The translations under genes were made by a program, and so were the position numbers. Under the pieces are notes generated by a model that saw only the letters and a list, made by a program, of their open reading frames with translations, had not been told where the DNA came from and ran no database searches. Below, one piece after another: positions 21,680 to 25,470 of a stretch of 32,098 bases of DNA (position 1 is its first letter; each line of letters starts with the position of its first letter). The DNA comes from an uncultured Pelagibacteraceae bacterium (GTDB lineage Bacteria; Pseudomonadota; Alphaproteobacteria; Pelagibacterales; Pelagibacteraceae), in NCBI GenBank assembly GCA_902518835.1, contig CABYHH010000010.1, positions 1-32,098 on the forward strand, given 5' to 3'.

Positions 21680-23362
<1,683 letters not shown>

Positions 23363-23388
23363 TCCCCATTAATCTCAAACAAAATTCA

Positions 23389-23419
23389 AAAAGGGCAGTT
23401 AAAACTGCCCTTTTTTTTT
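23389..23419 (+). terminator. Rho-independent terminator after groEL
   Basis: Stem AAGGGCAG / CTGCCCTT (extended by TT-AA) around a short TAAA-type loop, followed by at least nine T from 23411. It lies 26 nt after the groEL stop. The A-rich run before the stem mirrors the T tail, so it might also act in the reverse direction. It is the only strong intrinsic terminator I saw. Confidence 0.9.
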
Positions 23420-23439
23420 ATAATATTTAAACTGTAGAT

Positions 23440-23556
23440 ATGTCAAAAAGATATAGTGGTAAATCTTTCAAAGATTCTAGCGTTAACAAAAAAGCTAAAT
23501 TGAGCTTAAAAGAAAAAAGAAGATTAAAAAGAGAAAAGGCAAGAAGGTCAAAATAA
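23440..23556 (+). CDS. Small, highly basic ORF (38 aa) between groEL and typA
   Basis: ATG at 23440 opens 38 codons ending TAA at 23554-23556: MSKRYSGKSFKDSSV..., then the stretch LSLKEKRRLKREKARRSK. About 17 residues are Lys or Arg against four acidic ones. A composition of this kind suggests RNA or ribosome binding, like small ribosomal or nucleoid proteins, but I recognise no family. It starts 21 nt after the T-run of the groEL terminator with no Shine-Dalgarno sequence, and a weak hairpin follows its stop. Coding status needs a conservation test: in a genome this compact, a 38-codon frame bounded by two terminator-like structures is suggestive but not proof. Confidence 0.55.
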   Translation: MSKRYSGKSFKDSSVNKKAKLSLKEKRRLKREKARRSK

Positions 23557-23600
23557 AAACCCTATTTTTCATAAATTATTAAGGTTTTTTGGGTTTTTTT
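23555..23600 (+). terminator. Possible weak terminator after the small ORF
   Basis: AAAAACCC (23555-23562) can pair with GGGTTTTT (23591-23598), which runs on into more T. The 28-nt loop contains an alternative partner, GGTTTTTT at 23583-23590. The stem is A/T-rich and the loop large, so confidence is low. Confidence 0.35.
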
Positions 23601-23626
23601 AAAGTTTTCAAAAAAAAAAATTAATG

Positions 23627-23632
23627 TATAAG
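23627..23632 (+). promoter_or_regulatory. Possible -10 element of typA
   Basis: TATAAG, 11 nt before the typA ATG at 23644, downstream of an 11-A tract (23610-23620) that could act as an UP-like element. It implies a leader of only a few bases. Confidence 0.35.
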
Positions 23633-23643
23633 AGCCAGAATTT

Positions 23644-25470
23644 ATGAGCAATAATATCAGAAACATCACAATTATAGCCCATGTTGATCATGGAAAAACA
23701 ACATTGATTGACAATTTAATGAAACAAAGTGGTTCATTCAGAGAAAACGAAGTTGTTGATGAAAGATTAATGGACTCGGGCGAACTTGAGAAAGAAAGAG
23801 GTATAACGATTTTAGCAAAACCTGCCTCTATAAATTGGAAAAGTTCTAGAATTAATATCATTGATACTCCAGGCCATAGAGACTTTGCAGCAGAGGTTGA
23901 AAGAGTTCTGAGTATGGCTGATGGTGCTCTATTACTAATAGACTCGTCTGAAGGTGTAATGCCTCAAACAAAATTTGTATTATCAAAAGCTTTAAAACAG
24001 GGGTTAAAACCTATTGTAGTTATCAACAAATTAGATAAATCTGATCAAAGAGCTAACGAAGTTCTCGATGAAACTTTTGATTTATTTGTAAATTTAGATG
24101 CAAATGAAGATCAATTAGACTTTCCAGTGTTATATGCTAGCGGTAGATCTGGCTGGGCTGACAAAGATGTGGATGGCCAAAGAAAAAATTTAAATCCTTT
24201 GCTAGATCAAATTATCGATCATGTAAAGCCGGCTGAACTTGAAAAATCAAAACCTTTCGCTATGCTTACAACTTTACTTTATGCAGATAGTTTTTTAGGA
24301 AGAAGTTTAGTTGGAAGGATTACCCAAGGAACGGCAAAAGCTAACCAAGCTATAAAGGCAATAAATCTAAAGGGTGAAAAAGTTGATGAAGGAAGATTGA
24401 CAAAAATTTTTAGATTTGAAGGAACCAAAAAAGTCCCGATTGAAGTTGGAGAAGCAGGAGATATTGTAGTAGTAGCTGGTTTAGAAAAAGCAAATGTTGC
24501 TGATACTATTTGTGATCTTGAAGTAAATGAGCCAATTAAAGCAACTCCTATTGATCCACCAACAATGTCGATTACTATAACAGTAAACACCTCACCTCTT
24601 GCAGGCACAGAAGGGAAAAAATTAACAAGCACACAAATAAGAGATAGACTAATTCAAGAAGCTCAAAATAATGTTGGTATTACATTTCAAGAAAATGAAG
24701 GAAATGACTCCTTTATAGTAAGCGGACGAGGTGAATTAATGTTAGAAATTTTGCTTACTCAAATGAGAAGAGAAGGTTTTGAAATGACAGTTAGTCCTCC
24801 AAAAGTTTTATTTAAAAAAGACGATAATGGAAATAAGCTTGAACCCATAGAAGAGATCACAATGGACCTTGATGAGGAGTATTCCTCAAAGATAATCGAC
24901 TCAATGAATAGAAGAAAAGGGAAATTAATTGAATTAAAAGATACTGGTAAAGATAAGAAAAGACTTATATTCCACGCCCCGACAAGAGGTTTAATGGGTT
25001 ATACCAGCAGATTTTTAACACTCACCAAAGGAAATGGAATCATAAATAGAATTTTTCACGATTATGGTCAATTTGAGGGAGAAATGGAAGGAAGAAAAAA
25101 TGGAGCTTTAATATCGATGGAACAAGGAAAAGCTGTGGCATTTGCGATATTTAATTTACAAGCAAGAGGTGAGATGTTTGTAACTCATAATGATCCAGTT
25201 TATCCCGGTATGATTGTTGGGTTATCTCCAAAACCTGGTGACATGATTATAAATGTTATGAAAGGTAAAAAACTGACCAATATGAGAACTCAAGGAACAG
25301 ATGAGAATGTTGTTCTTACACCTGTTAGAAAAATGTCAATAGCAGAACAGTTAAGTATTTTAAATACAGACGAAGCTCTAGAAATAACACCAGAGTCTTG
25401 TAGATTAAGAAAGGCTATTCTTGATCCTCATGAGAGAAAAAGAAAAGAAAAATCTGGTGCTGCCGCCTAA
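23644..25470 (+). CDS. typA: Ribosome-associated translational GTPase TypA/BipA
   Basis: The 608-aa GTPase binds ribosomes and aids 50S assembly and stress or low-temperature translation. Its G domain has G1 AHVDHGKTT (about 12-20), switch region ERGITILAKPASINW, G3 DTPGHRDFAAEVERVL, and G4 NKLDKSDQR. The C-terminal half holds EF-G-like domains with SGRGELMLEILLTQMRREGFE and the TypA-specific RGLMGYTSRFLTLTKGNGI and GALISMEQGKAVAFAIFNLQ. Length and motifs separate it from EF-G and LepA. The stop overlaps the convergent YczE-like gene by 4 nt. Confidence 0.98.
   Translation: MSNNIRNITIIAHVDHGKTTLIDNLMKQSGSFRENEVVDERLMDSGELEKERGITILAKPASINWKSSRINIIDTPGHRDFAAEVERVLSMADGALLLIDSSEGVMPQTKFVLSKALKQGLKPIVVINKLDKSDQRANEVLDETFDLFVNLDANEDQLDFPVLYASGRSGWADKDVDGQRKNLNPLLDQIIDHVKPAELEKSKPFAMLTTLLYADSFLGRSLVGRITQGTAKANQAIKAINLKGEKVDEGRLTKIFRFEGTKKVPIEVGEAGDIVVVAGLEKANVADTICDLEVNEPIKATPIDPPTMSITITVNTSPLAGTEGKKLTSTQIRDRLIQEAQNNVGITFQENEGNDSFIVSGRGELMLEILLTQMRREGFEMTVSPPKVLFKKDDNGNKLEPIEEITMDLDEEYSSKIIDSMNRRKGKLIELKDTGKDKKRLIFHAPTRGLMGYTSRFLTLTKGNGIINRIFHDYGQFEGEMEGRKNGALISMEQGKAVAFAIFNLQARGEMFVTHNDPVYPGMIVGLSPKPGDMIINVMKGKKLTNMRTQGTDENVVLTPVRKMSIAEQLSILNTDEALEITPESCRLRKAILDPHERKRKEKSGAAA

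Follow-up and report, generated by a model that had tools for sequence, protein, structure and literature searches.

A conserved SAR11 micro-protein gene found at changing chromosomal addresses

A frame of 38 codons, lying in the gap between two genes that we take to be groEL and typA (both names recognised from sequence), is almost certainly a protein-coding gene. Comparative sequence data place its product in a SAR11-specific family of micro-proteins, outside known family libraries. Across relatives the gene stands behind different neighbours, and these addresses are tied to rpoB clades, as would be expected of a vertically inherited gene. The stretch of DNA analysed (the window, 32,098 nucleotides; Table 1) comes from a genome of 1.0 Mb in 42 contigs, 86% complete, whose relatives bear Pelagibacteraceae or SAR11 names.

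Table 1. Features of the small gene and its flanks in the window
Feature	Position	Strand	Basis or remark
groEL, upstream neighbour	21701..23362	+	ORF list; name by sequence recognition
groEL intrinsic terminator	23388..23415	+	12-bp stem, T tail; 24 nt separate it from the ATG of the small gene
TATAAT, possible -10 element, weak	23419..23424	+	15 nt before the ATG; across relatives barely enriched over shuffles
38-aa basic protein gene, MSKRYSGKSFKDSSVNKKAKLSLKEKRRLKREKARRSK	23440..23556	+	homologues and pN/pS
N-terminal motif codons (M[ST]KRYSGKSxKD, near-invariant)	23440..23475	+	148 distinct proteins
Codons 23-37, predicted C-terminal helix, Lys/Arg-rich, variable in length and sequence	23506..23550	+	AlphaFold2
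typA (BipA-type GTPase), downstream neighbour	23644..25470	+	ORF list, conserved relatives; family name by recognition

Evidence for a coding frame

The original prediction described an ATG-to-TAA frame of 38 codons, nearly half of them for lysine or arginine, in a groEL-typA space of 281 bp. All three statements were verified: the frame runs from the ATG at 23440 to the TAA at 23554-23556; the groEL stop at 23362 and the typA ATG at 23644 bound a gap of that length (25% GC); and the product contains 17 lysine and arginine residues in 38 (pI 11.5, charge about +13.5). ORF length alone is weak evidence, because when the gap is shuffled with dinucleotides preserved, 205 of 2000 trials contain an ATG-initiated ORF of 38 amino acids or more on one strand or the other. 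In none of the 2000 shuffles was the longest ORF equally basic. It is comparative data, not length, that settle the coding question at the level of sequence.

Homologues were found in 45 of 101 related genomes, many of them incomplete; all 45, the window's genome among them, fall within the 61 congeneric genomes. The selection test used 46 loci from these 45 genomes, again with the window's locus, found by similarity and extracted with a looser motif, [YF]SGK. The first 12 residues, M-S-K-R-Y-S-G-K-S-F-K-D, are identical in all 46, and the Ser, Arg, Gly, and Leu codons are free to vary synonymously. The sense frame has pN 0.088 and pS 0.656, for a pN/pS of 0.13; the Jukes-Cantor dN/dS is 0.06, with dS near saturation. 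By contrast, the two shifted forward frames give pN/pS of 1.8 and 2.0 and contain stops in 46/46 loci. Two antisense frames contain stops in 45/46 and 46/46 loci, and the third, free of stops in every one of the 46, has a ratio of 0.33, weaker than that of the sense frame and attributed to codon complementarity.

Together, tblastn-type conservation and this Ka/Ks-type test strongly support the coding claim. Frameshifts or stops in close relatives, or lack of amino acid conservation, had been named in advance as the findings that would count against it, and the claim survives. The frame is, as far as sequence can tell, conserved and coding under strong purifying selection. That the frame arose by chance, or that a conserved RNA structure has been taken for a gene, is scarcely credible. 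Frames of this length are not rare in shuffles of the gap, as noted, but the frame-specific pN/pS refutes both versions; moreover, 148 distinct proteins share the start and motif without variation, the frame is kept at other addresses as well, and the window contains no Rfam match.

The protein family and its distribution

Residues Y5-S6-G7-K8-S9, K11, D12, and K17 are invariant over the 148 distinct proteins, and length and C-terminus vary. These proteins were collected with a motif requiring YSGKSxKD, and invariance within it is partly built in; the 46 similarity-found loci, extracted with the looser [YF]SGK, show it without that requirement. The pattern M[ST]KRYSGKSxKD occurs once in the window (0 expected by chance). 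Family members average 45% lysine plus arginine and are 28-44 amino acids long, with one 62-aa read-through excepted. (In this form, locus L042 of genome G040, the frame continues past the conserved part, the usual stop apparently having been lost.) Diverged members, M[ST]KRYSGKSxKDRSFxKKPKLSKK..., are present in genera g5, g6, and g7. AlphaFold2, given 44 family members, predicts with high confidence a C-terminal helix over residues 23-37 (mean pLDDT 94 for block 21-30 and 89 for 31-38), which agrees with the helical stretch of the original prediction. The N-terminal half is less certain (pLDDT 65-70; pTM 0.37).

Searches of family libraries named no relative. The 21 members compared with NCBIfam matched zero models; against Pfam they gave one chance-level match (RecA_C, E 0.026) and nothing else; PHROG gave no useful family match for the protein; and profile A2 found no useful match at E<=10 among 177,635 distinct PDB sequences, known ribosomal proteins included. 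Standard proteomics is expected to miss the protein, because full trypsin digestion, as computed, leaves no peptide longer than six residues in 147 of the 148 members.

Profile A1 matched 306 of 397 genomes of the order at E<=10; with 22 weak rows dropped, 284 (a hand count) have a homologue at E<=1e-3. Near-complete genomes carry the gene in 122 of 151 cases across the order and in 100 of 113 within the genus (hand counts). A class-wide draw of 385 genomes produced five matches at E<0.01, all in the window's family, f1. We did not count as homologues the matches outside f1 in that draw (best E 0.012) or the weak ones in f2, its sister family (best E 0.056); profile matches to DnaK in genus g6 (E 0.008-0.05) reflect chance resemblance to a GKSFxDS stretch. 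A GTDB scan with a degenerate pattern for M-[ST]-K-R-Y-S-G-K-S-x-K-D found at least 119 stretches. Among the 80 matches listed, titles name Pelagibacteraceae, Pelagibacterales, or Pelagibacter in every case but one: the unplaced single cell 'Alpha proteobacterium SCGC AAA280-B11', whose locus, L238, lies beside yajQ, as in g6. Within the collections searched, the gene is restricted to f1, which is Pelagibacteraceae by the names of relatives. A phage-borne small protein was also considered and rejected, with 0 matches in a pattern search of IMG/VR viral contigs and 0 in a tblastn search of phage records.

The gene is not universal. At least four genomes of the genus (G138, G222, G173, and G182), 91-96% complete, have an intact region upstream of typA and no copy found genome-wide; in two of them the groEL terminator leads straight into typA. 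These four near-complete genomes argue against the gene being essential, and our best guess is that it is dispensable in some genomes. One genome (G007) has two copies, both behind a groEL, probably through mixed assembly.

A changing chromosomal address

The nearest classified upstream neighbour was recorded for 185 distinct loci: groEL in 43, fabI in 20, tsaD in 16, FAA hydrolase in 15, an uncharacterised family (fam42) in 11, yajQ/DUF520 in 9, and others more rarely; for 51 of the 185 it is unclassified or a contig edge. These counts include loci from close relatives, which cannot be treated as independent. In 61 of 185 loci, among them the window's, typA is the neighbour downstream (summed over typA rows). 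In 89 of 186 loci the start codon adjoins or overlaps an upstream ORF's stop. (The totals of 185 and 186 differ by slightly different keys for removing duplicates.) The weight that the original prediction implicitly gave to the groEL-typA gap was therefore misplaced: many relatives carry the gene elsewhere, and the two near-complete genomes just described have groEL adjacent to typA without it.

rpoB was searched in 30 genomes chosen by address rather than at random, and was found in 25, from which a tree was built (the rows for G037, a fabI row, and for G032 and G115 are partial). On this tree, 11 labels (ten addresses plus one gene-less genome) require 11 changes, the minimum being 10; none of 200 label shuffles was as low as 11. 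The tsaD, yajQ, FAA-hydrolase, fam42, and fam52 addresses each correspond to one fully supported group. Others are less clean: fabI is in two places, and groEL/helicase is intermixed with groEL/typA. Read most simply, the tree shows a gene inherited vertically and re-sited about once in each clade. Two observations stand beside this one. The rpoB of G037 (C1:70690-74746) lies in two frames with an in-frame TAG, probably a sequencing error. At other addresses (L054, L056, L063, and L068), a GGGCGTTCTGTT-C-AGGTGCCC-like element recurs just after the small gene and could be a structured RNA.

The loci with typA downstream raise the idea of a cis-acting leader ORF that governs typA, or that reports groEL read-through. 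Against this, most loci have another gene downstream, so that the ORF is not always upstream of typA; selection acts on amino acids; and 16 of 22 near-complete genomes of the genus without typA retain the small gene (hand count). Because of the relocated copies, such a leader is very unlikely and largely refuted. Functional coupling to TypA was also set aside: the small gene is missing in 6 of those 22 genomes and in 7 of 91 near-complete genomes of the genus with typA (hand counts), a weak tendency with phylogeny uncontrolled, and three of the seven have a contig edge at typA.

Separately, a search at E<=1e-60 gave no TypA match for 22 of the 113 near-complete genomes in the genus (hand count), including G109, G113, G117, G124, G126, and G131; one TypA-less genome is 99% complete in five contigs. 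Other translational GTPases are still matched in the TypA-less genomes checked. Some SAR11 lineages seem to have lost TypA.

At the window's own address, the groEL terminator of the original prediction is real, with a fold well below shuffles (z -5.6), but the weak second hairpin does not stand out from shuffled sequence (z -0.68; 53 of 200 shuffles equally good). The TATAAT that follows the terminator was not reported by a sigma-70 scan. A hexamer of this kind lies near the ATG in many loci (at least 5 matches in 85 of 97 loci, versus 0.72 of shuffles); a leaderless promoter is not claimed, since hexamer scores barely exceed those of shuffles of the same 35 nt. Directly upstream of typA, at 23597-23640, a T-rich block is followed by TTAATGTATAAGAGCC. 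This arrangement recurs in relatives, with a similar form in G173 and G182, which lack the small gene, and may be the typA promoter. In other relatives (L043-L045, L064, L070, and L075) the space between groEL and typA serves as an insertion site, containing an FkbM-type methyltransferase gene, an opposite-strand DEAD-box helicase gene, or 1.5-2 kb of other DNA.

Proposed function and rivals

By analogy, we give an even chance to the proposal that the small protein is an auxiliary factor that binds the ribosome or rRNA. Like ribosomal and ribosome-associated small proteins, it is short and strongly basic, with a confidently predicted helix. The near-invariant N-terminal motif predicts one specific partner, and it is the one feature that argues for such a partner. 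On the other side stand the lack of any sequence match to known ribosomal proteins and the near-complete genomes that have no copy; the genes beside it often have no link to translation (fabI, FAA hydrolase, and fam42, for example), and a Lys/Arg-rich peptide is compositionally unremarkable in a gap of such low GC content.

In the proposed mechanism, the conserved N-terminus (KRYSGKSxKD...KKxK), probably extended, would thread over an invariable surface of RNA while the Lys/Arg helix docked on the phosphate backbone, much like short accessory ribosomal proteins. The factor would be auxiliary and non-essential, stabilising or tuning the ribosome or its assembly. At the groEL-typA address its expression would depend either on groEL read-through or on a short promoter that overlaps the terminator of groEL; at about half of the loci examined, a start at or next to the upstream stop codon would allow co-translation. 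The full version of this proposal, a hitherto unrecognised accessory SAR11 ribosomal protein encoded by a tiny, vertically inherited gene that is re-sited at the tail of a different transcription unit in each clade, is a good deal more speculative, and we hold it unlikely that all its parts are true together.

The main rival is a small nucleic-acid binder that acts on the nucleoid, in compaction like a histone tail, or on mRNA, as an RNA chaperone, rather than a ribosome component. Composition and predicted helix fit it equally, and some clades have RNA-related neighbours (helicase, pnp, and tsaD). The near-invariant 12-residue N-terminus, however, suggests one conserved docking surface, not generic charge, and this rival is the less probable of the two, at somewhat under one chance in three.

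Comparison with known proteins is instructive for the ribosome proposal. bS22 family proteins are bound to 16S rRNA and to helix H67 of 23S rRNA; bTHX (Thx), like other small basic ribosomal proteins, is very short and Lys/Arg-rich. The SAR11 family seems to resemble it in this, and its 21 members gave only the chance-level RecA_C match described above. The bS22 of C. acnes is helical, highly basic, and 33 amino acids long, and was recognised when density left unassigned in a ribosome map was examined; bS22 and eL41 contain 55-65% positively charged residues (PMC10085706). As described there, bS22 (AURKAIP1/COX24-domain, with mS38 relatives; Actinobacteria and Bacteroidetes) is likewise lineage-restricted. 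The SAR11 family has a near-invariant N-terminal motif that could not be placed in bS22, and sequence gave no support for membership, with no such match for the 21 members in Pfam or NCBIfam or for profile A2 in PDB at E<=10. The actinobacterial bL37, also small and lineage-restricted, was annotated as hypothetical until it was seen in the ribosome (PMC10085706). Here too sequence gave no support for membership, no PDB chain matching at E<=10.

Both bS22 and bL37 show antimicrobial-like activity in vitro (PMC10085706), and the SAR11 protein is short and cationic with a helical C-terminus. A secreted or membrane-active cationic peptide is nonetheless improbable: no signal peptide is visible by eye, adjoining loci have no conserved processing, immunity, or export gene, and the distribution is near-core.

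A search of the literature for the small-protein family found no description. A P. ubique study reports that it excluded intergenic unannotated protein-coding regions, which its supplement lists (PMC2704228), and the small ORF may already be on that list. SAR11 is one of the ocean's most abundant bacterial groups. Because its genomes are small and densely packed, a near-core gene of less than 120 bp that family libraries do not name is a gap in the parts list. The changing address is more unusual than a lineage-specific conserved small protein in itself: a vertically inherited gene that changes address clade by clade would be an unusual and checkable evolutionary pattern.
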